Origin: Gammaproteobacteria bacterium
GTDB taxonomy: Bacteria > Pseudomonadota > Gammaproteobacteria > SURF-13
Assembly: GCA_016195665.1 (NCBI GenBank)
Contig: JACPZD010000039.1
Span: 1-62,471, forward strand
Direction: 5' to 3'
Length of the DNA: 62,471 bases
Both the position numbers and the translations under genes were made by a program. The notes under the pieces were generated by a model, which was not told the DNA's origin, did no database searches, and saw nothing but the letters and a program-made list of their open reading frames with translations. Positions 6,648-43,600 of the stretch are shown here, piece after piece (within the stretch, counting starts at the first letter, position 1; each line of letters opens with the position of its first letter).

Positions 6648-8444
6648 TTAACGCAGATAGCCTTCCATGGCCAATTTGTTCAACACCAGTTGCGCCGCCT
6701 CCAGGGGAGAGTAATCCTGGGTGTCTATGACGAGTTCTGCATCTTGGGGTATTTCATAGGGATCGCTGATCCCGGTAAACTCCTTGATCAATCCCGCCCT
6801 GGCCTTGGCGTAGAGGCCCTTGCGGTCGCGTCTTTCGCAGATTTCCAGCGGGGTGGAAACATAGATCTCGATAAAGCCGCCGTAGGCAGACATCATCTCC
6901 CTGACCTGCCTGCGCGTCGCTTCATAAGGCGCAATTGGCGCGCAAATCGCAATCCCGCCGTGCTTGGTGATTTCACTTGCCACAAAACCGATGCGCAGGA
7001 TGTTCAAGTTCCGGTGTTCGCGCGAGAATCCCAGTTCGCTAGAGAGGTGTTTACGAACCACGTCGCCGTCCAGCAACGTCACCGAGCGGTTTCCGAGCTC
7101 CATCAGCTTGGCGAGCAGCGCCCTGGCGATGGTGGACTTTCCCGAACCGGACAGGCCGGTAAAAAAGAGGGTAACGCCCTGTCTATATTTCGGAAGATGA
7201 ATCCTGCGCAACTCCGCCACGATCTCCGGGTAGGAAAACCACGGGGGAATCTCCAGATCCTCCGCGAGCCTTCTCGTCAATTCGGTATTTGAAAGAGCGA
7301 GGACCCGTTGCGTTGGTTTTACCTGATCGCTGGGGAGATACTCCGCGCGCTCTTCCACGTAAAGCATGTTGTGTACAGGCAAAATCTCAATGCCTAATTC
7401 TGACGTACAGGGAAGAGCGACAGCGAAGGGTTCTACTAATGTCGTGGGTCGCTCCCGGCGTCCTGCCTCCCGCGACATTAGTTCTTCCCTGTACGTCAGA
7501 GGCAGGACGCCGGGAGCGACTTGATGGGTGGAAAGCGGCTGATCCGAATGTTCAGTTATGCCCCCCGCCGAGTCCATCATGAGGATATGGGAACAGCCGA
7601 AGTTCTTGCGGATGATGGCGAACAATAGCGCCTCACGCGGGCCCGCATGGCGCAGTGGCAGCGGCAGCAATGATAGCAGCGCGCTCCCTTCCGGATAATA
7701 TCTTAATGCTTGTTCATGGCAACGTATGCGTGTGTAATGCCCGCCGTCCCCCGGATTCGATGGTCCCGCTACGGGATGGATAAAGAGATTTGCCTCGGCC
7801 ATCCTGGCGGCAAACGCGGCTGCTTCAATCTGAGCGCGGTGCATGGGTTGCTGCGTGTGTACGGCGACTGTTTTACGCCAGCCGGCGCGAGTAAACGCCT
7901 CTCTCACTTCTCTCGGGGTGAGGCGTAAATGAATGAAATCATAATGGGCCGGCAGTTCGATGCCGAAGACACGGCCGCCCAGGTAAACGGGATGAACTTG
8001 ATGCAGCAGGAAATGCACTCCGGGATGGCTGTTATCCCGAGAACCGTGGATCTGTGTGGCTTCCAATGACTTATCTGGTCTCCAGATGTCCGTTACCTGC
8101 ATCACGGCAAGCAGAACGCCTTCCGGGTCGCGCAATGCGATGGGCTGGCCCGCTGAGAGCCCCTCGGCAAATTTTTCCGTCACATCGAGCATAATAGGTA
8201 TCGGCCAGAGCAGGCCATTTGCAAGCCGGCCGTGCTGGAGCACGCTTGCATAGTCGGCCTGATTCATGAACCCTATCAGCGGTGAAAACGCACCGGTTAG
8301 CAAGAGTTCAAGATCGCTTAGCTGGGGGGCGGTGAGATCCCAGGAGGGAAAATCCTTGGAGGCGGCCCTATATTGAGCCGCCTCTGCCGGAGAGACTAAC
8401 AACTCGGTCAGTTTGCCGCCGTGGGGAGAGGGGAGGGCAGTCAT
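6648..8444 (-). CDS. cysC: Sulfurylase-like/APS kinase fusion with an in-frame palindromic insert
   Basis: A 598-residue fusion: PUA-like and ATP-sulfurylase-like domains (about 1-425), then APS kinase. The kinase domain looks intact: P-loop GLSGSGKST (430-438), DGDVVRKHLSSELGFS, and the ICERRDRKGLY region; it would make PAPS from APS. The sulfurylase core is degenerate: where active enzymes carry QTRNPxHxxH this one has HTQQPMHRAQ (196-205), losing the arginine and the second histidine, so sulfate activation by this domain is doubtful. Residues 309-348 are encoded exactly by a 120-bp palindromic repeat (7401-7520) whose relative lies at 20491-20607; the conserved sequence resumes at ELGIEILPVHNMLYVEE. 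Divergent from the glycan genes; PAPS could serve glycan sulfation or assimilation. Confidence 0.85.
   Translation of the reverse strand: MTALPSPHGGKLTELLVSPAEAAQYRAASKDFPSWDLTAPQLSDLELLLTGAFSPLIGFMNQADYASVLQHGRLANGLLWPIPIMLDVTEKFAEGLSAGQPIALRDPEGVLLAVMQVTDIWRPDKSLEATQIHGSRDNSHPGVHFLLHQVHPVYLGGRVFGIELPAHYDFIHLRLTPREVREAFTRAGWRKTVAVHTQQPMHRAQIEAAAFAARMAEANLFIHPVAGPSNPGDGGHYTRIRCHEQALRYYPEGSALLSLLPLPLRHAGPREALLFAIIRKNFGCSHILMMDSAGGITEHSDQPLSTHQVAPGVLPLTYREELMSREAGRRERPTTLVEPFAVALPCTSELGIEILPVHNMLYVEERAEYLPSDQVKPTQRVLALSNTELTRRLAEDLEIPPWFSYPEIVAELRRIHLPKYRQGVTLFFTGLSGSGKSTIARALLAKLMELGNRSVTLLDGDVVRKHLSSELGFSREHRNLNILRIGFVASEITKHGGIAICAPIAPYEATRRQVREMMSAYGGFIEIYVSTPLEICERRDRKGLYAKARAGLIKEFTGISDPYEIPQDAELVIDTQDYSPLEAAQLVLNKLAMEGYLR
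7401..7520. repeat. 120-bp nested palindromic element inside the APS kinase gene
   Basis: Ends TGACGTACAGGGAAGA (7401-7416) and TCTTCCCTGTACGTCA (7483-7498) form a perfect 16-bp inverted repeat. A 14-bp arm (7435-7448) pairs with 7469-7482 with one mismatch. A perfect 22-bp arm at 7448-7469 pairs with 7499-7520. The length is exactly 40 codons with no stop in the host frame, and a diverged copy sits between genes at 20491-20607. This is like the Rickettsia palindromic elements, which also insert in-frame into proteins. Confidence 0.8.
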
Positions 8445-8612
8445 GAGGTTCTATATGTTACCTATTCGGATCGCGTGGCTGGCTCTAGGCGCCCTCTAGG
8501 CGACATCGTCAAGTTATTACAGATGAAAACTAGTAAAATCACATTGTTATCCACTTAATTCTAATTGGATAACGCATGCCGGGCAACCTCTATATTTGAA
8601 GGGCTGCGCATA

Positions 8613-10076
8613 ATGAAAAAAATATTTTTAAATACGAGCATTTTTTGGGTATTTGCCGGCATCATCGTGCTCGCCCTATTCAGCATCCCAAAATTGAGTT
8701 TAACCCTCCTAGGGGGGGAGATAAGTTCCCTTGGCACGGTCTCAGGCGCCGCTGCAGCCGGTTTGCTGCTGTTTTTTGTTTGGAGGCATCATTCATGGCT
8801 GGCAGCTCTGATACAACGTCCCATTCATAATCTGACGAGAATACCCGTAACCGTGTGGTTGATATCGTTGATAGTGATGGGGGTATTGTTGAGATATATG
8901 TGGGCAGTGAGCTTTCCGGCGCCGCTCAGTTCCGATGGCGCAACGTATTTTGGTCTGGCGGAGAGGCTGCTGAAGTTTGGTTATTATCGTGACGCCGTAG
9001 GAAATTATGCCTATTGGCCACCGGGATACCCCTTTGCCCTCTATGCCGTTTTCATGTTGACGGGCGCCAAGACGTGGGTCATTGTTTTGATCAATCTTCT
9101 CGCCTACTCCCTGAGTATCCTGATTGCCTGGAGACTGGCGCAACTGCTATTCAACGAGGCGGTGGCGAGGTTCTCGACGCTCATTGTCGCACTGTGGCCA
9201 AACGCCATCTTCTCCACCGTTGTGGCGGGCAAAGAGATGCTGCTGGTGCTTTTGTTGCCGTTAGCGCTGCTGTTATATATGTATAGCACCCGATCGGTCA
9301 AACAGGGCGGGATATTTTCATTGCTAACAGGCGCTACGCTGGGCTTTGCAAGTTTGACACAGCCCTCCCTGCTGTTGTTTCCTGCCGTGCTTGCACTATA
9401 TGAATATTTGACCTCTGACAAGTGGAGTAAATCTGCCATAAGGATGGCCATAATATTGCTCGGTATGAGCGTGGTCATTACGCCATGGGCGGTCAGAAAT
9501 TATTCGATTTTTAATGCCCCCGTGTTGATTTCCACTAATGGCGGCGATGTCTTTTATAGGGCCAATAATCCGCTCGCGACGGGTGGTTATACACCGGTGG
9601 GTGAACGTGACCTGTGGCAATACGGTGAAATAGAGCGCAACAAACTGGGCTATCAATGGGCCAAGGAATGGATCGTGGCAAATCCTGCGTCATTTCTCGT
9701 GCTCGCCGTGAAAAAACAAATCCTGTTTCTGGGTGACGACGCGAACGGCGTCTATGAAACACTGAAAAGAGGTCTGGGGATAACGGATTTGCGTTATCCG
9801 CTCATTAAGGCGCTGAGTAACGCCTATTGGCTGGCGATATGGATACTTCTATTGATAATGCTTCGGCGTTACCACAGCACCGGCGCGGCTGATAACCCGG
9901 CAGTGATCCTGCTGATGTTGAGTGTGATCTATTTCTTTGCGATAGACAGTGTCTTTGAAAGCGGCAGCCGTCATCATCTGCCGCTGATTGTAATCCTGTC
10001 TACGCTCGCGTCCATGACGGCCTTGAAGAGCGCAGAGGTTTCATCTTCTGTTCGATCAGGCAGATCCGTATGTTGA
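8613..10076 (+). CDS. Polytopic GT39/ArnT-like glycosyltransferase
   Basis: About 487 residues with about ten or more hydrophobic segments. The first large periplasmic loop carries PAPLSSDGATYFGLAERLLK and YAYWPPGYPFALYAVF, the acidic-residue and proline pattern of family-39-like transferases that use polyprenyl-phosphate sugars. I placed the start at 8613 (MKKIFLNTSIFWVF) behind GAAGGG, rather than the upstream ATG at 8565, because the shorter form begins at the first membrane segment. The following gene overlaps its end by seven bases, so the two are probably co-transcribed. Likely attaches sugars on the periplasmic side in surface-glycan assembly. Confidence 0.78.
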   Translation: MKKIFLNTSIFWVFAGIIVLALFSIPKLSLTLLGGEISSLGTVSGAAAAGLLLFFVWRHHSWLAALIQRPIHNLTRIPVTVWLISLIVMGVLLRYMWAVSFPAPLSSDGATYFGLAERLLKFGYYRDAVGNYAYWPPGYPFALYAVFMLTGAKTWVIVLINLLAYSLSILIAWRLAQLLFNEAVARFSTLIVALWPNAIFSTVVAGKEMLLVLLLPLALLLYMYSTRSVKQGGIFSLLTGATLGFASLTQPSLLLFPAVLALYEYLTSDKWSKSAIRMAIILLGMSVVITPWAVRNYSIFNAPVLISTNGGDVFYRANNPLATGGYTPVGERDLWQYGEIERNKLGYQWAKEWIVANPASFLVLAVKKQILFLGDDANGVYETLKRGLGITDLRYPLIKALSNAYWLAIWILLLIMLRRYHSTGAADNPAVILLMLSVIYFFAIDSVFESGSRHHLPLIVILSTLASMTALKSAEVSSSVRSGRSVC

Positions 10077-13000
10077 GCAGGGTTCCGCGTCAACCTTGGT
10101 ACAAAGTGACTGCAGAGGGCAAGCTACAGCCTAACCACTTAGCGCCTCGGAGCGACGCTCTGATACCGAGCCGCCGGCTCTTCTATGCCGGTTTGATCTA
10201 TCTGGCGTTTGTCATATACGGCAGTCTTGTGCCGCTGGATTTCCACTATCATCCTCTCGCCGAGGCATGGCGGTCTTTTACCAACATCCCTTATTTGCGA
10301 TTAGGGGTTGGATCACGCGCCGACTGGGTGGCGAACATTCTGTTGTACATCCCGCTGGGATTCATAGGTGCAGCTTTGCTGGGAAGCAGGAATAGGTCAC
10401 TCATTGGAACCCTTGTTGCCGCCCTGTTGGTGTTCGCCTTTTCCGCGCTTATTGCCCTTGGCGTGGAGTTCAGCCAGCAATTTTTTCCGCCACGTACCGT
10501 GTCGCTCAACGATCTCATCGCTGAATTATTGGGTGCAGCGAGTGGGATTTTTCTATGGCAGGTAACCGGCAAAAGACTCACGCGGCTGGGGGTTGAAGTG
10601 GCCGTGGGGGGCGCCAATGCTATGCGCGCACTGATGGTGCTGTATGCTCTTGGTTATCTCATCATCAGTGTGTTCCCTTATGACTTTTTAGTGTCGGCCT
10701 CGGAGATTTCCTGGAAATTAGAGCATGCCGCGGACAGTGTGAGTTTTTGGCCCGCATCCTGTAACAGCCGGTTGTTATGTCTGATTAAACTCATGGCGGA
10801 AGCCGCTGCTGTGGCGCCATTGGGAGCATTGTTTGGCAAGTACCTTGCTAAACCACGCCACGGATTGTTTCCGGCATTATTGCTCGGTGCATTGCTCGGT
10901 CTGGTCATTGAGACGCTGCAATTCTTCCTTGCTTCAGGCGTCACCGAAGGTATTTCGGTGCTGACACGCGCCGTAGGCGTAGCGGCCGGATTAAAGCTAT
11001 TCAATTTCGCCAGTGTGGCCAATTTCAGGCGTTTGGAGGGCTATTTACGCCCAGCCGTGTTGTTGATGCTGCCCTTATATTTGCTCGGCTTGGCGCTGGT
11101 CAGTGGTTGGTTCAGAGCTGATTGGATCAGCATCGAGAAGGCGCTTGCCAAGCTCGATACGCTGCGATTCATCCCGTTTTATTATCACTACTACACGAGC
11201 GAAACCACAGCCTTGCGTAGCCTCCTGGTCACTGTAGCGATGTATCTGCCTGCGGGTCTCGGCTATTGGGCTTGGTCGCAACGCCGTGTTCATTATTCCG
11301 GAAACGCTGGCGGGGTGACGGCAGGATTGATCGGCGCGTTCATCGCGCTATTGATGGAGTCGAGCCGGTTGTTTCTGGAAGCTAAACGGCCTGATCCGAC
11401 GGATCTTCTCATCGCTGCACTGGCGGCGGGCTTTGCCTACATACTCACTGATAGGATAGCCCGCTGGTTTACGCAAGGGCCGGATAAGATGTCGGCGGTC
11501 AAGGCCGATGTCATGGCGCATCACATCGCTAAGGGCCTCGATCTAGGGCGCATGGCATTACGCCTGGTGGCGCTGCTCGCGGCTGCCGTTGTCCCCGCTG
11601 CTCTGTTGTATTATCCGCTGAAGCCTGTCTGGTTGGCGGCGGCGCTGATTTTGTATGGGTTGGCACTATGGCGGCGGCCGGCGCTTTGGCTGATCGTAAT
11701 TCCCGCTCTGCTCCCCGTGTTGGACCTGGCGCCCTGGTCAGGATGGTTCTTTCTGGATGAATTTGATCTTTTCGTCCTGGTCACGCTTGCGGTAGGCCTA
11801 TGGAGGCTCCCCAGTGAATGGCATACGGATATATCCAAAATCTCTGTGGTATTGCTCTTATTTGCAGTGGCGTCTTATGGCATCAGTGCGCTGATCGGAC
11901 TTTTGCCTTGGCAAGCGCTGGATGCCAACGCCTTTTCTAACTATTACAGTCATTACAACGCCGTCAGGATTCTTAAAGGTTTTGTCTGGGCCGTGGCGCT
12001 GCTCCCGCTCTGGCTGCATGCCGTGAGGCAAGGGGTAGAGGTTGGTAAACATTTTACAGCTGGTATGGTGCTGGGTTTGCTTGCCGTAACCACTGTGGCG
12101 CTGTGGGAGAGACTGGTTTTTCCGGGGTTATTTGACTTCACCAGCGATTACCGCATCAGTGCCACTTTTTCTGGGATGCACGTCGGCGGGGCCTATATAG
12201 ATGCTTATCTCAACGCCGCACTGCCGTTTGTCGCGCTTTGGCTCATCACCACCCGAGATGGGTGGACGCGTGGCGCTGCGCTGCTGTTGTTCTGCCTCGG
12301 CGGTTATGTGCTGCTGGTTACCTACTCCAGAGGCGCGTATCTGGCATTCGCCGTGGCAGCGACTATCATGAGCGTGGCCGCTATGCTGCAAGCGATCAGA
12401 CACAAGGAAGCAAAAATGCCGAGAGCCGCCGCCCTCATCGCCGTGGCGACGGCAATAGGGATTGCGGCGCTGGCGGTATATCAAGGCGGATATATGCAAG
12501 CGCGTTTCAGTCAAACCGGCAAAGACATCGGTATCAGAACTGCACACTGGAGTGACGCACTGCGTATGATGGATAAAGATGGGCTGACGCAATGGTTCGG
12601 TATGGGGCTCGGCAGTTATCCGCGCATCTATTCCAAAAAAAATTCCGAAGGAGTCATGCTGGCCACCTATCGCTACGAAACGGAAGACGGTAATATTTTT
12701 CTGCGGCTGTATTCCGGCGATGCGCTTTACCTCAATCAGGCTGCCGCGCTGAATCCGCACCAGCATTACCTCTTGTCCTTCGACGCCCGCAGTACAACTC
12801 CCGGGGCGCTATTGTCCGCGCCGGTGTGCGAGAAAGGATTACTGTATTCTTACCGCTGCGTGTGGCTCAGTAAAAATATATCGAATCCGGGCTGGGAGCG
12901 GCATGCCATCGCCTTTGATTCGGGCGAGACCGGTGCCGGCTGGTGGTTCCTGCGCCGTCCGGTCAAACTGTCGCTCTACGTTCCGCAATCACATACGGTG

Positions 13001-13432
13001 GTGGATGTGGATAATGTGCAACTCATCGGACCGGACGGAGTTGATCTCATCAGCAACGGCGATTTTTCCCAAGGAAACGCACGCTGGTTGTTTTCGACCG
13101 ATAATCACTGGCCCTGGCACATTGAAAATCTCTGGCTGCATCTATTCTTTGAGCAAGGCTGGATAGGCGTAGTGGCAACCGGGTTGTTAGTCATTGCCGC
13201 TCTGATGAGGTTGGTGAGTAGAATGCGTCAGGGTGAACTGTTTTCCGGTGCAGTCCTGGCCGCGCTTGGGGGCATGCTGGTGGTGGGGGCGGTTAACAGC
13301 CCGCTTGATGCGCCGCGCCTTATGCTGCTATTTTATTTTCTGCTGCTGATTGCTGTGATGGAGATACCAAGGCTGTTGTCAGGCAGGATCCAAGACGCAG
13401 CAAAGTGCTATAATACCGCCGGCGTTCAGTAG
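10070..13432 (+). CDS. Giant VanZ/O-antigen-ligase fusion membrane protein
   Basis: A 1120-residue protein with many membrane segments. Residues about 30-180 form a VanZ-like module (YGSLVPLDF, ADWVANILLYIPLGFIGA, VEFSQQFFPPRTVSLNDLIA). VanZ-like segments recur at about 190-310 and 320-460. From about 490 the protein resembles O-antigen ligase/Wzy-type polymerases, with a long loop (YVLLVTYSRGAYLAF, WFGMGLGSYPRIY). Within that loop, at about 860-1010, lies a beta-rich jelly-roll-like insertion (LSFDARSTTPGALLS, LISNGDFSQGNARW) resembling carbohydrate-binding modules, followed by the closing PWHIENLWLHLFFEQGWIG. I infer a polymerase or ligase for an exopolysaccharide or O-antigen. It starts within the preceding gene and is followed by GtrA and GtrB-like genes. 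Confidence 0.8.
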   Translation: MLSRVPRQPWYKVTAEGKLQPNHLAPRSDALIPSRRLFYAGLIYLAFVIYGSLVPLDFHYHPLAEAWRSFTNIPYLRLGVGSRADWVANILLYIPLGFIGAALLGSRNRSLIGTLVAALLVFAFSALIALGVEFSQQFFPPRTVSLNDLIAELLGAASGIFLWQVTGKRLTRLGVEVAVGGANAMRALMVLYALGYLIISVFPYDFLVSASEISWKLEHAADSVSFWPASCNSRLLCLIKLMAEAAAVAPLGALFGKYLAKPRHGLFPALLLGALLGLVIETLQFFLASGVTEGISVLTRAVGVAAGLKLFNFASVANFRRLEGYLRPAVLLMLPLYLLGLALVSGWFRADWISIEKALAKLDTLRFIPFYYHYYTSETTALRSLLVTVAMYLPAGLGYWAWSQRRVHYSGNAGGVTAGLIGAFIALLMESSRLFLEAKRPDPTDLLIAALAAGFAYILTDRIARWFTQGPDKMSAVKADVMAHHIAKGLDLGRMALRLVALLAAAVVPAALLYYPLKPVWLAAALILYGLALWRRPALWLIVIPALLPVLDLAPWSGWFFLDEFDLFVLVTLAVGLWRLPSEWHTDISKISVVLLLFAVASYGISALIGLLPWQALDANAFSNYYSHYNAVRILKGFVWAVALLPLWLHAVRQGVEVGKHFTAGMVLGLLAVTTVALWERLVFPGLFDFTSDYRISATFSGMHVGGAYIDAYLNAALPFVALWLITTRDGWTRGAALLLFCLGGYVLLVTYSRGAYLAFAVAATIMSVAAMLQAIRHKEAKMPRAAALIAVATAIGIAALAVYQGGYMQARFSQTGKDIGIRTAHWSDALRMMDKDGLTQWFGMGLGSYPRIYSKKNSEGVMLATYRYETEDGNIFLRLYSGDALYLNQAAALNPHQHYLLSFDARSTTPGALLSAPVCEKGLLYSYRCVWLSKNISNPGWERHAIAFDSGETGAGWWFLRRPVKLSLYVPQSHTVVDVDNVQLIGPDGVDLISNGDFSQGNARWLFSTDNHWPWHIENLWLHLFFEQGWIGVVATGLLVIAALMRLVSRMRQGELFSGAVLAALGGMLVVGAVNSPLDAPRLMLLFYFLLLIAVMEIPRLLSGRIQDAAKCYNTAGVQ

Positions 13433-13464
13433 TGAAAGATAGGTAAGGTGTCTGACGGGGTGAG

Positions 13465-13932
13465 GTGAGTGTGGGAACAAAGCCAACTAAGGCATCCAAA
13501 ACAGCCCTTGGTTTCTCAGCAGACGGCGTCCCTCTAAATCTTATAACCCAGTTTATCCGCTACGCAGGGGTCGGCGCGATAGGAACCGCCGCCCAATACC
13601 TTACGCTGATTCTGCTGGTTCAATTCCTCAAATTCGATCCGGTGACGGCTTCTGTTCACGGCTTCATTGTGGGGGGCTTCGTCAATTACTTCCTAAACTA
13701 CCGGATTACGTTCAAAAGCGATATCCCTCACAAGCAGGCAATACTGAAGTTTTTTGCAATTGCCTTTATAGGGCTCGCCATAAACTCCATGATGATGGCC
13801 GTTGCGATTGAATTTTTTAAGCTGCATTATCTGTTGAGTCAGGTGATCGCCACCGGCGTCATATTGATTTGGACCTTTTTAGGCAACAGATTATGGACTT
13901 TCAAGGGAGCCGGCCATGGAACAAAATATTAA
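13465..13932 (+). CDS. GtrA-family membrane protein
   Basis: 155 residues with four membrane segments, including FIRYAGVGAIGTAAQYLTLI and FIVGGFVNYFLNYRITFKSD, the latter a GtrA family signature (NY-x-xNRxxTF-like). GtrA proteins are thought to flip or present undecaprenyl-phosphate-linked glucose. The start is a GTG at 13465. The next gene, a GtrB/ArnC-like transferase, overlaps its 3' end by 17 bases, a typical gtrA-gtrB pair. Confidence 0.88.
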   Translation: MSVGTKPTKASKTALGFSADGVPLNLITQFIRYAGVGAIGTAAQYLTLILLVQFLKFDPVTASVHGFIVGGFVNYFLNYRITFKSDIPHKQAILKFFAIAFIGLAINSMMMAVAIEFFKLHYLLSQVIATGVILIWTFLGNRLWTFKGAGHGTKY

Positions 13933-14905
13933 GCCGGGGCAAACGGCGATTGCCGGCATACTGCTGTCGGTAGTCGTGCCCGCCTTCAACGAACAGGCGG
14001 TGTTGCAGGAATGCCATAGCCGCCTTTCCAAAGTCTTGGACACCCTCGGCATTCCCGCCGAGATCGTTTTCGTCAACGATGGAAGCACAGACAATACGCC
14101 GGAGGTGTTATACCGGTTGAGGGAGCAGGACCCGCGAGTCGCGGTCGTCGAGTTGAGCCGCAATTTTGGTAAGGAGATTGCGCTAAGCGCCGGATTGGAT
14201 CACGCCCTGGGTGAGGCGGTGGTGGTGATAGATGCAGATCTCCAGGATCCTCCGGAATTGATTCCAGAGCTGATAAAGCAGTGGCATGAGGGCTACGATG
14301 TGGTCTATGCGACACGTGTCGCGAGAGATGGTGAAACCTATTTGAAAAAGGCGACCGCAGGCGCTTTTTATCGCTTGATTCAGAAAGTCAGCCGGGTCAA
14401 GATTCCGGCGGATACCGGCGATTTCCGTCTGCTGAGCCGCCGGGCGGTGGATGCGCTCAAACAATTACGGGAACAGCATCGCTTCATGAAGGGCCTGTTC
14501 TCCTGGATAGGTTATCCGCAAAAGTCCGTGCCTTACCGCCGCGATCCGCGCTTTGCGGGCGAAACGAAATGGAATTATTGGCGGCTGTGGAATTTGGCCT
14601 TGGAGGGTATCACCTCGTTTACCATCGCCCCGCTGAAGCTGGCGTCATATATAGGAGTGCTCACGTCGTTGGCGGCATTTATCTACGCGGTCAGGGTGAT
14701 CTACAAAACATTGGTGTACGGAGACCCCGTGCAAGGCTATCCCTCATTGATGGTGGTGGTGTTGTTTTTGGGAGGGATACAGCTCCTCACGCTCGGCGTA
14801 ATAGGCGAATATCTTGGGCGCATGTTTGACGAGACCAAAAGCAGACCCTTGTATTTTACCAAGGCCTATCATCCGCCTAAAGTTCAGGCTTCACCACGGC
14901 TTTAA
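13916..14905 (+). CDS. GtrB/DPM1-like GT2 glycosyltransferase
   Basis: 329 residues. The N-terminal GT-A domain shows SVVVPAFNEQ, FVNDGSTDNT, the nucleotide-sugar DxD motif VVIDADLQDPPELIP and the QLREQHRFMKGLFSW region. Two C-terminal membrane helices follow (about 235-310; KLASYIGVLTSLAAFIYAV and SLMVVVLFLGGIQLLTLGVI). These enzymes load a sugar onto undecaprenyl phosphate at the cytoplasmic face. It overlaps gtrA, with which it should act; the GT39-like enzyme upstream is a plausible user of the product. Confidence 0.9.
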   Translation: MEQNIKPGQTAIAGILLSVVVPAFNEQAVLQECHSRLSKVLDTLGIPAEIVFVNDGSTDNTPEVLYRLREQDPRVAVVELSRNFGKEIALSAGLDHALGEAVVVIDADLQDPPELIPELIKQWHEGYDVVYATRVARDGETYLKKATAGAFYRLIQKVSRVKIPADTGDFRLLSRRAVDALKQLREQHRFMKGLFSWIGYPQKSVPYRRDPRFAGETKWNYWRLWNLALEGITSFTIAPLKLASYIGVLTSLAAFIYAVRVIYKTLVYGDPVQGYPSLMVVVLFLGGIQLLTLGVIGEYLGRMFDETKSRPLYFTKAYHPPKVQASPRL

Positions 14906-15335
14906 GGGACTGACGCGCCCGCTTGAACAGCCATAATCCCAGCGCTACTCCCGCCATATCCAGCAACACATCGGAAAGCGAGCTATAGCGGCCGATGACA
15001 AAGGATTGATGCCACTCATCCAGCACGCCGTATCCCGCGCTCCAGATAAAGGCAGTGGCGACCGCTGCGAAGACACTCGGCGTCCAGGCTTGCAGCGCCC
15101 AACCCGCGAGCCAGCCGAGCGCGCCGAACACGGGAACGTGCAGCAGGTTTTGCACGTTGGGCGGCACCCATACAAACAACCGATATACGAGCGGGTCATC
15201 GGGATAGAGAGTGCCGGGGATGGATGACAGCCAAAATAGCAACGCCATCATCGCCAGCGGATAGATGATATGCCAGCGCCGCACCGGCGCCTGTGCGCAA
15301 CGCACGAACAGATGTTTGAGGCCGCGGTTTTGCAT
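14877..15335 (-). CDS. VanZ-family membrane protein
   Basis: 152 residues with four membrane segments and the family pattern LLFWLSSIPG, NLLHVPVFGALGWLAGWAL, YGVLDEWHQSFVIGRYSSLS and DVLLDMAGVALG. VanZ-like proteins are common in exopolysaccharide and teicoplanin-resistance contexts, but their biochemical activity is unknown. It is transcribed towards the GT2 gene, overlapping its 3' end by 29 bases, and lies back to back with polA. Confidence 0.85.
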   Translation of the reverse strand: MQNRGLKHLFVRCAQAPVRRWHIIYPLAMMALLFWLSSIPGTLYPDDPLVYRLFVWVPPNVQNLLHVPVFGALGWLAGWALQAWTPSVFAAVATAFIWSAGYGVLDEWHQSFVIGRYSSLSDVLLDMAGVALGLWLFKRARQSLKAVVKPEL

Positions 15336-18189: not shown

Positions 18190-18316
18190 AGAACTTATCC
18201 ATAAATAATTTACCGCAGAGGGCGCAGAGGAATCAAGAAGGATTTGTTTCTCCTCCGCGTCCTCCGCGGTGAAGCTTTTTCACCGCAAGGGACACAGGGG
18301 AACTATTTATGGATAT
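18190..18316. repeat. CGCAGAGGGCGCAGAGGA-type intergenic inverted repeat
   Basis: TTATCCATAAATAATTTACC at the left and ACTATTTATGGATA at the right are inverted copies. Between them lie ACCGCAGAGGGCGCAGAGGA and CCTCCGCGTCCTCCGCGGTG, also inverted, plus TTTTTCACCGCAAGGGACAC. This motif type is common between genes in many proteobacteria. It separates polA from the delta-60 repeat gene. Confidence 0.65.
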
Positions 18317-18328
18317 GCTCTAAGCCAA

Positions 18329-20284
18329 ATGCCATCACGCTGCTTATCAACTCTTCTGATGCTGACTCTCACTGCGTTGGCGCCATTATGCGCCTACGCC
18401 GCGCCGGGAGATCTTGATCCCTCCTTCGGCAATGGCGGCAAGGTCGTCACTAATTTTTTCGGCAGCTCGGACGAGGCCAATGCAGTGGCCCTGCAGCCCG
18501 ACGGCAAGATTGTGGTGGTGGGGGAGAACGGCACGGACTTTCTGGTGGCGCGTTACAACGCCGACGGCAGCCTGGATTCCAGCTTCGGCACAGGCGGCCG
18601 GGTGACCACCGACTTTGGAGCAGAGGATGTGGCTCAGGCCGTTGCGATTCAGCCAGATGGGAAGATTATAGTAGTAGGCTACACTATTAACGGCAGCAGC
18701 GGTGATTTTGCCCTGGCGCGTTACAACCCTAACGGCAGTCTGGACAGCGGCTTTGGCGGAAGCGGCAAGCTCGTCACTGACTTCGGCGGATACGATCTCG
18801 CCTATGCCGTAGCCCTACAACCGGACGGCAAGCTCATCGCTGGCGGATTATCTACCACTCCCAGTAACCTGGGTGATTTCGCCTTGGTGCGTTATAACCC
18901 GAACGGTACATTGGATTTGAGCTTTGGTGTCGCGGGCCTGCAGAGAACCAGCTTTGGAGCGGTTGAAGTTATTGACGCCTTGGTGCTGCAACCTGACGGC
19001 AAGATTTTGGCTGCGGGGGCTACTGCTACCGTCAGCCTTAGTGACGCCAATTTTGCCCTGGTTCGCTATAACAGTAACGGCACGCTGGACAGCGGCTTCG
19101 GACTCGGCGGCGGCGTCACCACCGACTTCGGCGGTTTCGACGAAGCGGTTGACATCAAACTGCAAGCTGATGGCAAGATTGTCGCGGCGGGTTATTCTGG
19201 CGGTGCGGGAGGAACGTTGGGCAATTTCGCCCTGGCAAGATATACTTCCAGTGGCGGTCTGGATACCAGCTTCGGCACGGGCGGAAAGGTGACAACGGAC
19301 TTTGGCTCCTTCGATGGAGCTGGTAGTCTTATCATTCAACCCGACGGGAAAATTATTGCGGCAGGCGCTACAGGAACCACCACCAACGCCGACTTCGCCT
19401 TGGTGCGTTATAACCTTGACGGGAGTTTGGATACCAGCTTCGGTACCGGTGGCAAGCGCACCACCGACTTTGGACGTATTGATGCCTCGAGAGATGCTGT
19501 CCTGCAACCCGACGGCAAGATGGTCTTGGTAGGCACCAGCTACAATAGCAGCGCCACTGACGGCGACTTCGTCCTAGCCCGTTACCTGGGCGACTCCGGC
19601 CTGCCCCAGCCCGGCTGGTGGTGGAATCCCGACCAGAGCGGCCGCGGCTTCTCTATTGAAGTGCGGGGCAACAACCTGTTCATGGCCGGTTACCTGTATG
19701 CCGATGACGGCCGCGCCACCTGGCTCGTCTCCGGCGGCCCCATGACCAACGTCAGCACCTACAGCGGCCCGCTGCTGGCCTTTGGCAACGGTCAGACCCT
19801 TACCGGCCAATATAAATCCAACACACCAACGGGCTCTGCAGGCACTATCACTCTCCAATTCAGCGATGCCAGCCACGGCACGCTAACCTGGCCGGGCGGG
19901 ACCATGCCCATCGAGCGGTTCCCCTTTGGCTCAGGCTCGCCCAGCTTCCAGCCCGAGTCCGGCTGGTGGTGGAATGAGGCCGAAAGCGGGCGCGGCTTTG
20001 CCATCGAGGTGCAGGGCAATAACCTGTTTATGGCGGGTTATATGTACGATAGCAGCGGAAATCCGATCTGGTATGTCTCGCCAGGCGGCATGACCTCACC
20101 CACGCTCTACCAAGGCAGTTGGCTCCAGTTTGCCAACGGCCAGACCTTGACCGGGGCTTACAAAGCGCCTAGCCAGCCGCCCACTAATGTCGGTGCGGTA
20201 GCATTGCAATTCACCAGCACCACCACGGCCACCCTCACTTTGCCCGATGGAAGGCAAATTCCGCTGACGCGCTTCTTGTTTTAA
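18329..20284 (+). CDS. Secreted delta-60 repeat protein
   Basis: About 652 residues. Signal peptide MPSRCLSTLLMLTLTALA followed by AYA cleavage. Then about eight copies of a 55-residue delta-60 (beta-propeller-like) repeat, recognisable by LDxSFGxGGxVTTDFG, AVALQPDGKIVVVG and FALARYNPNGSLD. The C-terminus holds two copies of another module starting GWWWNxxxSGRGFxIEVxGN and containing LFMAGYxYxxxGxxxWxVS. I chose the internal ATG at 18329 because it begins a clean signal peptide; the open frame extends to 18269 into the upstream repeat. Probably a surface or secreted protein; the function of the repeat is unknown. Confidence 0.82.
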   Translation: MPSRCLSTLLMLTLTALAPLCAYAAPGDLDPSFGNGGKVVTNFFGSSDEANAVALQPDGKIVVVGENGTDFLVARYNADGSLDSSFGTGGRVTTDFGAEDVAQAVAIQPDGKIIVVGYTINGSSGDFALARYNPNGSLDSGFGGSGKLVTDFGGYDLAYAVALQPDGKLIAGGLSTTPSNLGDFALVRYNPNGTLDLSFGVAGLQRTSFGAVEVIDALVLQPDGKILAAGATATVSLSDANFALVRYNSNGTLDSGFGLGGGVTTDFGGFDEAVDIKLQADGKIVAAGYSGGAGGTLGNFALARYTSSGGLDTSFGTGGKVTTDFGSFDGAGSLIIQPDGKIIAAGATGTTTNADFALVRYNLDGSLDTSFGTGGKRTTDFGRIDASRDAVLQPDGKMVLVGTSYNSSATDGDFVLARYLGDSGLPQPGWWWNPDQSGRGFSIEVRGNNLFMAGYLYADDGRATWLVSGGPMTNVSTYSGPLLAFGNGQTLTGQYKSNTPTGSAGTITLQFSDASHGTLTWPGGTMPIERFPFGSGSPSFQPESGWWWNEAESGRGFAIEVQGNNLFMAGYMYDSSGNPIWYVSPGGMTSPTLYQGSWLQFANGQTLTGAYKAPSQPPTNVGAVALQFTSTTTATLTLPDGRQIPLTRFLF

Positions 20285-37699: not shown

Positions 37700-40600
37700 T
37701 TATGAGTGAACTGAGGATAGTGCCATTACTTTCACTTCGACCGCGTGATCCTGGCGGTCGTCTATCAGTGGAATGATTTTGTCGGGACGTTCGACGCCAT
37801 CCACTGTTACGCGCATGGTGTCGCGCTGCGAAGCATCGGTGGCTTCAGTTTGCGTCACGGCAATATGATAGACCGTCTCCCGGTACCGATAGTGTATCTT
37901 GAACGCTTTCCAGTGCACAGGGAGGCACGGAGCGAAATGCAGTTTGTCCACTTCCAGTCTCAACCCCAGGAGTGATTCCACGATCAGCCGGTACATCCAG
38001 CCGGCCGAGCCCGTGTACCAGCTCCATCCACCGCGGCCGGTGTGCGGCGAGAGCGCATAGACGTCGGCCGCGACGACGTACGGTTCCACTTTGTAGGTCG
38101 CCACACCCTCCGGAGACTTTGCATGGTTCACCGGGTTGATCATGGTCAACAGTTCCCACGCGCGCCGGCTGTCGCCCAATGCGGCAAACGCCATCGCCGC
38201 CCAGATTGCCCCATGGGTATATTGCCCGCCATTCTCTCTCACACCGGGGACGTACCCTCTTATATAACCGGGATCCAAATTCGACTTGTCGAAGGGCGGG
38301 TCCAAGAGTTGGATGAGTGCGTGGTCGCGGCGCACCAGGCGCTCATCTACCGCTTTCATTGCCATCCGTGAGCGTTTGGCATCGCCCGCGCCGGATAGCA
38401 CCGACCAGCTCTGCGCAATCGAATCAATTTGGCATTCTGGATTGCTCGCCGAGCCGAGCGGGGTGCCGTCGTCGAAGTAGGCGCGGCGGTACCACTCGCC
38501 ATCCCAGCCATTTTGCTCGATATTCCGGGTGAGCCGAATCCGCTCCCCTTCGCAACGTTCGGCAAAGGATGGGTCACCATGCAGGCGCGCAAGGCCAGTG
38601 AACTGTGTGAGCACTTCACAAAGGAAAAAGCCCAACCAGACGCTTTCGCCTTTGCCGTGTTTGCCCACCCTATTCATGCCGTCGTTCCAGTCGCCGGAGC
38701 CGATGAGCGGCAGGCCGTGCTCACCAAATCTGAGTCCTCTCAGGATGGCTCGCACACAGTGTTGGTACAAGCTGGCCGTCTCGATAGACCGGCCGGGTAG
38801 ATCGTAATACGAGTCGTCCTCTGCGTTGACGGGGCGGCCTTCGAGGAAGTGGATGGATTCATCCAGCACCCCGGTGTCCCCGGTGTTCAGAACGTAGCGG
38901 CACGTCGCCAGCGGCAGCCAGAGGTAATCATCCGAACAATGCGTACGCACGCCCCGGCCCATGGGGGGATGCCACCAATGCTGGACATCGCCTTCCAGGA
39001 ACTGACGGCCCGCGCAGAGGAGCAGGTGTTCGCGCACGCGCTGCGGCTCGGCGTGGATAAGCGCCATCACGTCTTGCAACTGGTCGCGGAAACCGAATGC
39101 GCCGCCCGATTGGTAGTATCCGCTGCGCGCCCAAAGACGGCACGCGATCGTTTGATACAAGAGCCAGCCGTTGGTCAGCACGTTCAGGGATTCATCGGGT
39201 GTTGCCACCTGCACGGCGCCGAGAGTGTGGTTCCAGTACTGCCATACCTTTTCCAGCGCCTCGCGCGCGGCAGTGGGTCCGCGCAAGCGACGCACCAGGT
39301 TGCCGGCGTCGCCGACGTCATGCCCCATGCCGAGCCTGAATGTGATCTCGCGCCCTTGTCCGGCGGCCAGCTCGAAGGCCACTTGAATAGCGGCGCAGGG
39401 ATCCAGGCCCGCCCCGATCTTGCCGGAGAGGCGCGACCGGCCCATTGCGGCCGGATTCTTGAGCGTGCCGTTGCGGCCGAGGAATTCAGTGCGGTCGCCG
39501 CTTAAGGTCCGCGTCGTATCGTCCACATCGAAGAACGCTACCCGATCGGTGAACTCCGTGTTGTAGGGGTTGCGCGCGTAGAGCGCCCCGCTGTGGGCGT
39601 CCACCTCGGTGGTCACGTGCATGGCCGATTTCGGCCGCAGATCTCCCAGCACCCATTCCGCATAGCCCGTGGCGGAAAGCCGGCGCGGCCGGCCTGACTC
39701 GTTATACACCTTGAGCACCGAGAATTTTATCGCTGCGTCCAGGGCCACGTATACCCACAGCTCCGAGCGGATGCCATCCTCGGCGTGCTCGAAGACGCTG
39801 TAGCCGAATCCGTGCCGGCTGACGTAGGAACCCGCTCCGCGACTGGGAAGCGGCGTGGGAGACCAGAAGTGGCCGCTCTCTTCGTCGCGGAGGTAAAAGG
39901 CTTCTCCGCTCGAATCGCACACGGGGTCGTTGTGCCAGGGGGTGAGGCGGAACTCGTGGGCGTTCTCGCTCCAGGTATAGGCGAGGCCGTTCTCCGAGAT
40001 GACGCTTCCAAACTGCGGATTCGCCAGCACGTTCACCCACGGCGCGGGCGTCACCTGTCCGGGTGCGGTCGTAATCACGTATTCGCGTCCGTCGGGAGTA
40101 AATCCCCCGAGTCCGTTGAAGAGAATCAGATCGCGATGCGGCCTTGCTGCACCCTCCGGGGCCTCGGGGCGATGACGCCGGGTCGGTTTGAAGCGCGGAA
40201 TGCGCACTTCTCTCAGGCCACTGCGGCTGATTTGTTCCGCCAGGGTTCCCCGGCTGTCGGAGATGATGATGCGCGCGACCGATTGCAGCAGAAAGCGGTC
40301 TTCGTTGGGTATCTGTTCCGCAGGGCGTACGAAGATTCCGCCCGGCCGATCCACAATATTGGCCTCGACGCCCGCGGCAATCAGCCCCATGATGTGTTCC
40401 TGGAGTAGTTGCCGGTAACCGGCGCGATCTTCGTTCCAGATCACCAGGTCCACCACCAGTCCCTTCAGGCGCCAGTATGCGTGGGCCTGCACCAGTTGGC
40501 GTACCAGATCAATATTGTCCGGGTCACCAATCTGCAGCAGCACGATCGGCAGATCGCCGGAAATGGCGTAGCCCCATAGACCGGATTGTCCGCGCCGGTT

Positions 40601-43600
40601 CTTGAGGAGGACACTCACGTCGGCGCGCAGTGAAGCATTGGCGTAGATGACGGAATTGGCCAGGTGTCCATAAAGTTGCGCGTCGGCCTCGGTGGCGTTG
40701 ATCTGCCGCAGCACCACCTGGGCATGGGTCCATGCCAGATCGAAGACGCGGTCCGCGAGCCGCCGATCCTGGTATTTTTCGACCAGGCCTAAGACGATGT
40801 CGCGGGTTTCGCCAATGCCGGTAACCATATCAATGATCACCGATTGTTCCGGATCGAGTGTTATTCGATAACGGATTGCGGCAATCGGATCCAGTACCGA
40901 GCCCTCATTACCCGAGAGCGCCGCGAAATCCGTCAATGCCTGGGGATCGGCGACGGTGCGTCCGCGACCGATGAATTGCATGCGCTGCGTTTCATAGGAA
41001 ATCTCTCCGGGGTCCGCTCCGTGCATGGCCATGAGGTGAAACATGCATGGCGTGTGTTCGCCGAGGGAACGGGGGCGGCGAGTGCAGAGGATGGCCCGCC
41101 GCGGGCGGATGATCTCGGTCTGAACAAACAGATTGCCGAACGCCGGATGCAGGGCGTCCGCGGCGGGCACTGCGAGCACCACCTCCGCGTAACTCGTGAT
41201 GTCCATCGTCCTGCGTGTCTGGGAACGGTTGGTGATGCGCACCCGGCGCAGTTCGATATCATCTTCCGGCGAAACAACGATCTCGGTATGGGTATCGAAA
41301 TCGCCATCGCCGACGAAATCCCGGCGGCGAAACTCCGCGCGTCCCTCCGAAAAAATCACAGCGTAATGCCTGGGCTGCTTCAGGGTGGGTTGATAGGCGG
41401 TTGACCAGAATGAACCGCTCGCCACGTCGCGGAGGTAACAGAACGTGCCCCAATTGTCGCACGTACTGTCTTCACGCCAGCGTGTGACGGCGAGGTCTTT
41501 CCAGCGGCTGTAGCCGCCGCCTGCGTTGGTGACCATCACGTGGTATCTGCCGTTGGACAACAACTGCACCTCCGGTACCGGCGTGTTGGGGCTGTTGAGT
41601 GTGCGTACCGGCGTCTCCGGAGCGCCGGAGGTCGCACGAATATCGGAAAGCTCGGTGATGTGCGAATAGAACGCCGTGGCTTTTGGAATGCGCTCATGGA
41701 GCAACAACAGGGTCGCCTGGAACAGGGGATCCGACTCGAATCGCTTCTGCATCGGACGGTCCAGCAGCAGATAGGCCAGAGACAACAGACTCATGCCCTG
41801 GTGATGCGCCATGAAGGACCGAACCACTGTGCTCGATCGCCCGCGCCGTTGCCGTGACGCGGTATAGTCGAGGGCTTCATAAAAGCCGAATCGTCCTGTC
41901 AGCCGTTCGGCGGCGAGCCGTTGCAAATTCAGGCAGGCCGCCTCGGGCGCCACCATCAACGCGAGCGCCGAGGCGTACGGTGCGATGACCAAGTCCTCGG
42001 CGAGCCCGCGTTTGAGTCCCAGACCGGGTACGCCAAAGGCACGATACTGGTAATTGAGGTGAACGTCCACCAGGTCGTAGCCGGATTCCGACATGCCCCA
42101 CGGTACGCCACGCTGCCTCCCATACTCGATGTGTTTCTCCACCGCCGCCTTATAGGTCCGGTCGAGCAGCGTGTTATCAAAAGTCGGCATCACCAGGAGC
42201 GGCATCAGATACTCGAACATCGAGCCGCTCCACGACAGTAGAACCGGTTCGCCACCGATGCTCGTGAGCAGGCGCCCCAGGGCAAACCAACTCTCCTGCG
42301 GCAGGCGTCCCTGTGCAATCGCCACGAAACAGCATAATCTCACTTCCGAAGCCAGCAGATCGTAGCAGCTGGAGTCCAGCCGCAGATCATTCACGTTGTA
42401 TCCGATAGCCAGCAGACGACGCCCCTTGTCGTACAGGAAGTCGTATTCCATGTCTGCGATCTCGCTTGCTTGCAATGCAAGGCGCCCGATTGTCGCGATC
42501 CGCTCCTGGGCGCGGCGACCGGCTTCCGCAATCAGCCGGCTAATCTCGGTAAGCCACTCGCGTTCCGCCGGTGTCGCCTCCGAGTCGAGCCGGCGCTCGA
42601 TTAACGGCAGCAACTCAAGCTCGAGTTTCGCCAGTTCGCGCAGCGTGGGTGTCTCGCGGAGGCCGGGAAGATCGCTGATCCCGCTCGGCCCGGCGGGCAG
42701 CGCGACCCAGGGGGCGAGAAACGTCAACTCGTCGAGAGCGCTCCGGCATTGTTGGGCCAGTGCCTGCGCCCACCCAATCGCTTCGCTCTCAGGGGCGGCA
42801 TCGAGGCTGCCGGCGATGTGGGCGGCGCTTGTTGCCAGCCGGGCCAGACATCGCTGCGCTGCGGCGAGTGTGGCCGGCCGGGCAGCGCATACGGATTCGA
42901 GATCCTTCCGGAATTGAGCGAGCGGGGCCGACGTGACACCTTCCGCTGCATCCATTAGAACGTCCAATGTGTCGTGGAGCCCGTCAAACAATCGCGCTCC
43001 CAGAATCGTGTCATCGGGAAGCGCCAGCAGCCCCGGCCGCAATGTCAGCAAATGTCCCGCAAGGTTGCCGCTGTCCACCGTTGAAACGTAGCGAGGGGAC
43101 AGCGGTTGCAGAGACTGCGTGTCATACCAGTTGTAAAAATGGCCGCGGTGCCGCTCCAAGGCCTGCATCGTGCGTAGCGCATTCGCCGTGCGCTCCACGA
43201 GTACTCCGGCCGGAATGTAGCCGAAGTCGTACGCGGACAGATTTGCAAGCAGCGCAAGCCCCATGTTGGTCGGAGAGGTGCGATGCGCAATCGTGGCTCC
43301 GCGATACTCCTGATAGTTATCCGGCGGCAGCCAATGATCTTCCGGGCCGATGAAGATCTCGAAGAACGCCCAGGTCTTGCGGGAAATTTTCCGGAGAAAG
43401 AGGATCTGCGCGGCCGTCAGTTTCGCCGCACGGCGAGCGAGCGGCCGGCTGATCCACCAGGCGATGGCGGGGGAGGCAAACCAGAGGAACAGTATCGGCC
43501 CGGCCGCGGTCAACGCGGCCGGGTTCGACTGCGCCAGAACCATCGTTGTAGCGGAGGCGATAACGGGGGCGATCCACATTGTCCGGAAAGAAGCAACGAG

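Follow-up and report, generated by a model that had tools for sequence, protein, structure and literature searches.

A triple-VanZ membrane protein with a ligase-like core and an inserted jelly roll, genomically linked to the exosortase system in Gammaproteobacteria

The abstract of the 2025 lipocone paper (PMC12419801) calls VanZ proteins enigmatic. The passages of that paper dealing with them list an Asn, an ExxQ motif and a helix-4 Asp as family features and predict that VanZ acts on lipid-linked sugar head groups, through reactions put forward as proposals. The same passages associate VanZ-1 domains with exopolysaccharide genes, WaaL among them, and mention a VanZ duplication in which one copy is inactive; the main text of the paper nowhere uses lyase, trypsin, tandem or triplicat*. 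For lipid-linked glycan enzymes, the relevant passage of PMC10920833 describes inverting polymerases in which Glu or Asp replaces the ligase His, those of clan GT-C1 having a conserved Asp/Glu at the ligase His site, or elsewhere as in GT127. Here, we describe a gene located on a 62,471-nucleotide stretch of DNA, hereafter the window, from Gammaproteobacteria bacterium (GTDB SURF-13; assembly GCA_016195665.1, contig JACPZD010000039.1). This gene encodes VanZ domains and a polymerase/ligase-like membrane core in a single chain, and genomes carrying its relatives mostly carry an exosortase as well.

Our analysis confirmed a three-part build: three VanZ domains, a ligase/polymerase-type core and a jelly-roll domain inserted into that core. 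The original prediction, made from the sequence without database searches, had proposed up to three VanZ-like segments, a polymerase/ligase-like membrane part and a beta-rich domain in the loop that normally holds the catalytic Arg and His; profile searches found both VanZ and ligase similarity. The open reading frame (ORF) begins with ATG and runs for 1120 residues with no internal stop. A hydropathy scan of the protein gave 21 membrane-like segments and a single long soluble stretch, residues 805-1031. The fusion architecture is a variant on the known VanZ and Wzy_C families, and a literature search of main texts, including few subscription papers, found no description of this combination of VanZ, polymerase and insert. 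The gene and its parts are as follows.

10070-13432, plus strand: fusion gene, 1120 residues, three VanZ domains and a polymerase/ligase core with an inserted jelly roll (profile matches, hhalign, homologues)
10196-10564, plus strand: VanZ copy 1, residues 43-165, with N89, E133, Q136, R142 and D148 retained (52.5 bits alone)
10640-11008, plus strand: VanZ copy 2, degenerate, with E281 and Q284 retained and the helix-4 Asp missing (29.9 bits alone)
11147-11449, plus strand: VanZ copy 3, degenerate, with E430 and D442 retained and the helix-2 Asn and helix-3 Gln missing (22.8 bits alone)
11582-12649, plus strand: first part of the core, residues 505-860, with invariant E680/R681, R754, R812 and R823 (Wzy_C 43.0 bits on 12230-12640; hhalign)
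12329-12331, plus strand: R754, first conserved Arg of Wzy_C-type ligases (Arg in 24/25 ordinary relatives)
12536-12538, plus strand: R823, second conserved Arg of Wzy_C-type ligases (Arg in 23/26 ordinary relatives)
12650-13105, plus strand: inserted jelly roll of carbohydrate-binding module (CBM) type, residues 861-1012, with the Cys pair C920/C930 (AlphaFold, 4mgq match)
13118-13168, plus strand: acceptor-side motif H1017-x-E1019-N1020-x9-G1030-x2-G1033, with E1019 at the usual ligase His (alignment)
13163-13375, plus strand: C-terminal membrane segments of the core, residues 1032-1102 (hydropathy)

The Pfam family VanZ (PF04892) matched the whole fusion protein in three stretches with 69.2 bits (cut-off 30.1), in line with the predicted number of segments. 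Scored separately, the three copies reached the values listed above, hence only copy 1 passes the cut-off by itself. The NCBIfam VanZ models remained below their cut-offs for the fusion protein (19.5 of 20 bits and 25.4 of 250). Across 23 aligned triple-VanZ proteins, the copy 1 residues N89, E133, R142 and D148 were present in all 23 and Q136 in 22. Copy 2 retains E281 (23/23) and Q284 (21/23), its helix-4 Asp being lost in the window protein and most relatives, and copy 3 retains E430 (23/23) and D442 (21/23), the Gln and Asn being lost in most relatives. In two loci (L058, L061), copies 2 and 3 deviate from the family residue pattern. The helix-2 Asn and helix-3 ExxQ of VanZ-1 lipocone proteins are both present in copy 1 only, with one or both missing from copies 2 and 3. 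The helix-4 motif DxDDxxxN is not complete in copy 1, where it reads SLNDLIAE; its core Asp is D148.

In the whole-protein Pfam scan of the fusion, PF13425 appeared at E 0.021 and Wzy_C (PF04932) was not listed. The isolated piece 12230-12640 matched Wzy_C with 43.0 bits (cut-off 31.7), and a genome search gave 44.8 bits. When 11 core-bearing proteins, the window protein included, were scanned whole for Wzy_C, two passed (32.3 bits in L060 and 37.0 in L040), five fell below the cut-off and four were not listed. Over 358 columns, hhalign matched the 15-member fusion-core family, stripped of the insert columns, to 26 ordinary Wzy_C-type proteins (99.1%, pairwise E 4.5e-19), which bears out the predicted polymerase/ligase-like part. 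With the insert retained, the match to the two further Wzy_C proteins that this genome encodes stopped just before the insert (82.6%, E 9.6e-6). The 26 ordinary proteins, which replaced a first set of 16, come from this and related genomes (26 of 30 loci); at least three of them (L081, L085, L090) appear, from the motif blocks, to be unrelated or wrongly aligned and are retained in all counts. A profile search of PDB with the core returned two weak CBM-type chains only and no WaaL, and the host's own ligase on contig C38 matched no PDB chain at E 0.1. For this reason, both Args and the His position were located by way of the ordinary Wzy_C relatives.

E680, R681, R754, R812 and R823 are each conserved in 15/15 members of the family. 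The conserved ligase His position, which is His in 22/26 ordinary relatives, is never His in the family (0/15). The ligase motif is worded HN-x9-GxxG, and this pattern is visible in the motif alignment. Two residues upstream of the His site, position 1017 is His in ten members, Arg in four and Asn in one, and position 1028 is acidic in all 15 (ten Glu, five Asp). Since the ligase His is absent throughout although the phosphate-binding Args are invariant, the protein is not a WaaL by this residue test; judged from its sequence, the core is ligase-like in fold and donor site. The predicted catalytic loop thus stood as far as the Args (R754, R823) are concerned, and its His was missing.

R823 precedes the insert, and the N1020-x9-GxxG segment follows it. 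AlphaFold modelled residues 861-1012 (three rows) entirely as strand, with a predicted local distance difference test score (pLDDT) of 78.7 and a predicted template modelling score of 0.77. Among solved structures, the best Foldseek matches of this model were CBM16/CBM4 modules (E from 1.2e-5), and a structural aligner placed the xylanase CBM 4mgq first (Z 11.7, root-mean-square deviation 2.8, 124 residues), as expected for the beta-rich domain that had been proposed. A profile of 15 inserts also found 4mgq by sequence (E 6.9e-5). Pfam CBM_4_9 was detected in two of the 15 inserts (best 1.6e-4), and the window protein's own insert matched no Pfam family. Other jelly rolls, some of which do not bind sugars, stood lower in both structural lists, at Z of about 9 in that of the aligner, hence the fold alone does not establish sugar binding. 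C920 and C930 are present in 15/15 and 14/15 relatives, respectively, and perhaps form a disulfide.

To place the protein among its relatives, we used a class sample of 369 genomes, 36 of which were matched by a protein search at E 1e-3; the 24 in which long stretches of the triple-VanZ block or of the core were matched were taken as carriers. The domain-architecture search yielded ten whole fusions, nine of them in genomes other than that of the window: the window, L038-L044, L047 and a Sulfuricella contig (L010). Another fusion, L009, is cut by the contig end (match from residue 338) and stands outside this count. According to Pfam, the window, L010, L038, L040 and L043 each have three VanZ stretches, whereas L041 and L047 have two; L039, L042 and L044 were counted as whole fusions from the alignment, outside the Pfam VanZ scan. 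In six other loci (L048-L053), the triple-VanZ block is joined to a heparinase II/III-like lyase. Hepar_II_III_C was over its cut-off in all five of those scanned (L048-L051, L053) and DUF4962 was over its own in two of the five, L052 having been placed in this group by similarity. In six loci (L054-L059), three of which belong to one genus, the block occurs by itself, and in L061 it carries a membrane tail, a 31% homologue of which is encoded next to the block by an ORF of its own in L058. Four loci (L045, L046, L060, L062) have the core without VanZ. As the block is found with a polymerase, a lyase, other partners or alone, the word fusion understates the case and the block is best seen as a module. 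Trees of the VanZ block and of the core were both weakly resolved. When the phylum was searched at E 1e-20 with the alignment of the triple-VanZ block, the best four candidates at most being scored per genome, 3 of 398 genomes matched, the window's own among them, and an order search with the core found only this last genome among six. Literature matches for VanZ with heparinase were judged unrelated from their titles and the starts of their abstracts.

Some individual loci of this set deserve mention. In L050, a second lyase-type ORF without VanZ match lies in tandem beside the VanZ-lyase fusion. In L052 and L053, the VanZ-lyase fusion adjoins an amidotransferase-like gene, and an exosortase lies 2.8 kb from the VanZ match. 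The VanZ-less core in L046 (7395-8711, minus strand) is extended at its C-terminus by about 440 residues, which matched no Pfam family at E 1e-5.

Exosortase (PF09721) was found in 126 of the 369 class genomes, including 23 of the 24 carriers and 103 of the 345 non-carriers (Fisher p 7.5e-11, kinship ignored). Before this count, 12 of the 36 matched genomes were excluded because their match covered just a short stretch or no more than one or two VanZ units (G041, G085, G090, G106, G155, G188, G213, G231, G278, G321, G324, G360); seven of these have an exosortase too (G041, G085, G106, G155, G321, G324, G360). Exosortase and family gene share a contig in at least 13 of the 24 carriers and are 2.8-100 kb apart in 12, the nearer exosortase being used where a contig holds two. 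This closeness is informative in G112, G245 and G250, with contigs of 3.7-4.4 Mb. The exosortase-associated ligase TIGR03097 was over its cut-off in 11 of 13 core-bearing genomes, two genomes in the family-control set scoring below it, indicating that the fusion enzyme is additional to that ligase. TIGR03097 itself did not match the window protein at E 1 (cut-off 188.1), and it matched two fusion relatives at 18-26 bits against the cut-off of 188. The genomic link of the family is with the exosortase/PEP-CTERM exopolysaccharide system and not with O-antigen or classical capsule, the two products that the original prediction named for a knockout check. In our literature search, no paper combined VanZ and exosortase, and neither VanZ nor ligase occurs in the main text of Haft 2006 (PMC1569441).

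Neighbouring genes were surveyed with BLAST clusters over 28 loci, window included, and the clusters were named from one or two scanned members. Among the recurrent neighbours, a trypsin-like protease was present in 11 loci, an amidotransferase-like protein in seven, and GalE and a probably secreted protein with a beta-helix look in six each; with four loci each, they also included the PrsK kinase, the TIGR03013 sugar transferase and HprK-related kinase A, the last three being over their family cut-offs. Of 169 neighbours in 24 loci, 87 in 14 loci were selected for a Pfam tally, in which Trypsin_2 came top with six, among the 25 of 72 families listed.

The gene for the beta-helix-looking protein lies near triple-VanZ genes in L038, L043, L049 and L054-L056. 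It is present in 13 of the 369 genomes, nine of which are carriers (p 2.5e-9, kinship ignored; three of the nine belong to one genus). It matched nothing in Pfam or NCBIfam at the thresholds used, and it may be a beta-helix by our own interpretation of how the sequence looks. In G299 it lies about 50 bases from the fusion, and in some genomes its open frames span about 940-1140 residues.

We infer the substrate, the reaction and the role of VanZ as follows. The protein is most likely a His-less polymerase or terminal transferase of lipid-diphosphate-linked glycans that serves the exosortase-associated polymer or, in this genome, the tailored product of the adjacent Gtr-type genes described below. 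That it is, more specifically, an inner-membrane enzyme of the sugar-diphospholipid class (clan GT-C1 type), accessory to the exosortase-associated (PEP-CTERM) exopolysaccharide system, has in our estimate an even chance of being right. In such an enzyme, R754 and R823 would hold the diphosphate of an undecaprenyl-diphosphate-linked glycan, and the acceptor-activating base would be, in place of the His, either E680 or E/D1028, two positions with an acidic residue in 15/15. The jelly roll, above the active site, would grip the growing or acceptor glycan. The triple-VanZ block would dock the same lipid-linked glycan, copy 1 perhaps cutting or swapping the lipid head group and copies 2 and 3 acting as binding or scaffold units. 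The fusion of this block to a heparinase-like lyase in other loci fits a general platform on which lipid-linked polymer is handed to building or cutting enzymes. A coupling of lipid-carrier handling, glycan binding and polymerisation in one chain, as originally suggested, is plausible and would fit the active-site set of VanZ copy 1, the Args, the CBM-type insert and the sugar-polymer neighbour genes in relatives.

Several observations weigh against this assignment. The window is contig C39 of its genome, and the exosortase locus, with its own TIGR03097, is on C28; the neighbours in the window are GtrA-, GT2- and PMT-like genes, not exosortase genes. One carrier (G057) has no exosortase match, and in G252 the exosortase and the family gene are 1 Mb apart on one contig. 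The 24 carriers are spread over 15 families and the association test is uncorrected for kinship; several of the same-contig distances are uninformative since the contigs are short. With 23 of the 126 exosortase-bearing class genomes carrying it, the family is no core component of that system. The amidotransferase neighbour that was scanned (L010) reached 297 of 817 bits for TIGR03108, far under the cut-off. At the ligase His position, the family has Glu in six members, Lys in five, Asp in two and Leu in two, which is not a uniform acid. As to the spatial arrangement of the parts, structure prediction served for the insert and was unusable for the whole protein, the full-length AlphaFold model (three rows) having a pLDDT of 39.9.

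A first alternative, which we regard as a real though tentative possibility, is that the VanZ block is a mere membrane scaffold or lipid-binding anchor and that all chemistry takes place in the C-terminal polymerase core. Active-site positions are missing from copies 2 and 3, which by themselves score 29.9 and 22.8 bits, and the VanZ reactions in the corresponding passages of PMC12419801 are proposals rather than experimental results. However, the conservation of N89, E133, R142 and D148 in 23/23 proteins and of Q136 in 22/23 goes beyond the need of a mere anchor, and the triple-VanZ block stands alone as well.

A second alternative, somewhat unlikely in our opinion, is that here the gene belongs to a Gtr-type glycan-tailoring operon and polymerises or ligates the product of that operon, not of the exosortase system. 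The genes concerned are the following.

8613-10076, plus strand: PMT_2-type membrane glycosyltransferase, overlapping the start of the fusion gene by 7 bases (PF13231, 42.1 bits)
13465-13932, plus strand: GtrA-type membrane protein, putative lipid-phosphate-sugar flippase (PF04138, 93.6 bits)
13916-14905, plus strand: GT2 glycosyltransferase, GtrB/PgfS-like, putative lipid-phosphate-sugar synthase (NF047588, E 3.1e-85)

GtrA-, GtrB- and PMT-type genes form a make-flip-use trio, and the three genes listed could likewise make, flip and use a lipid-phosphate-linked sugar. The start of the PMT_2-type gene, ATG at 8613, was picked by eye (the ORF list begins at TTG 8565), and the best NCBIfam match of the GT2 gene, NF047588, reached 286 bits, under the cut-off of 500. 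The overlapping or closely spaced genes from 8613 to 14905 on a single strand speak for such an operon, as does the exosortase being on a different contig. Yet at E 1e-6 the PMT_2 and GtrA genes had no match among the ORFs of 27 relatives' loci and the GT2 gene had a single long match (33%, in L046) besides two short ones, whereas the exosortase link recurs. The exosortase locus on C28 includes an amidotransferase over the TIGR03108 cut-off (1117 bits), and the trypsin-like neighbour has a homologue with 47% identity on this contig too; C5 carries another exosortase-type match, which is shorter. Upstream of the operon, no sigma-54 site was found in 8445-8612 at two mismatches or fewer, and over the whole window the pattern occurred at chance level (79 observed vs 77.6 expected).

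Beyond the polymerase assignment, the VanZ block could be a docking and head-group-processing platform dedicated to the exosortase-associated exopolysaccharide pathway, copy 1 releasing or transferring the finished polymer from undecaprenyl diphosphate and the partner setting the fate of the chain. We hold this broader proposal to be unlikely as it stands. The partner would either extend the chain, as a His-less polymerase with a glycan clamp, or cut it, as a heparinase-like lyase.

We deem it improbable that the ligase core has no catalytic activity left and that the protein is a platform for sensing or docking glycans. The lack of the ligase His in 15/15 would suit this, as would the fusion of the VanZ block to lyase-type domains, but R754, R812, R823 and E680 are invariant in 15/15 and the passage of PMC10920833 cited above describes His-less inverting polymerase families. 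Least probable is a true O-antigen ligase (WaaL, GT121) acting on lipid A-core, for although the Wzy_C-type core has both Args, the defining His is absent, two other Wzy_C proteins are encoded in the genome and the relatives are located among exopolysaccharide genes.

Other genes of the window were also noted. A single-domain VanZ gene (14880-15335, minus strand) lies directly past the GT2 gene, and ORFs about 43% identical to it occur in the triple-VanZ loci L057 and L059. A bifunctional sulfate adenylyltransferase/adenosine 5'-phosphosulfate (APS) kinase (6648-8444, minus strand) is divergent from the fusion operon, with homologues near triple-VanZ genes in L048 (55%) and L010 (APS-kinase part only, 47%); this proximity could hint at a sulfated polymer or be a coincidence. 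Further away are a 671-residue protein with DUF5122 beta-propeller repeats just past polA (18269-20284, plus strand) and a very long ORF of 2917 residues (37700-46453, minus strand).

If assigned correctly as a His-less polymerase or terminal transferase, the protein would join the candidate enzymes of the exosortase/PEP-CTERM polymer pathway. Having an inserted domain of sugar-binding type and no ligase His, it provides a test case for the choice of acceptor and base by inverting lipid-linked polymerases. Because three VanZ copies share a chain with an enzyme whose family suggests undecaprenyl-diphosphate-glycan substrates, and elsewhere with a lyase-type domain, the hypothesis that VanZ acts on lipid head groups becomes directly testable. 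If the block is indeed a platform, VanZ would gain an assignable role in a polymer-building machine.

Compared with known systems, the core resembles WaaL/Wzy_C (PF04932; GT121, clan GT-C1) in its membrane segments, two conserved Args, long loop near the C-terminus and N-x9-GxxG, but the fusion family lacks the ligase His (15/15), holds within the loop a CBM-type domain about 150 residues long and has three VanZ domains in front. WadA, presented in PMC10920833 as a bimodular O-antigen ligase with a second glycan enzyme (GT25) in one chain, offers a parallel; its partner is a soluble glycosyltransferase rather than VanZ, and the passage makes no mention of an inserted CBM. The exosortase-A-associated O-glycosylation ligase TIGR03097 belongs to the same broad ligase class and occurs in the same kind of genome, but it is a separate enzyme whose model leaves the window protein unmatched. 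The insert shares its jelly-roll fold with CBM4/9/16-type modules (4mgq, 2zey, 1gu3) and has a weak sequence match to 4mgq; unlike them, it sits within a membrane glycosyltransferase, with about 16-20% identity to the three. Finally, the block shares with the VanZ/lipocone superfamily (VanZ-1) the PF04892 match, the Asn, ExxQ and helix-4 Asp of copy 1 and the exopolysaccharide context, and it differs in having three copies per chain, two of them degenerate, fused here to a polymerase and elsewhere to a heparinase-like lyase.

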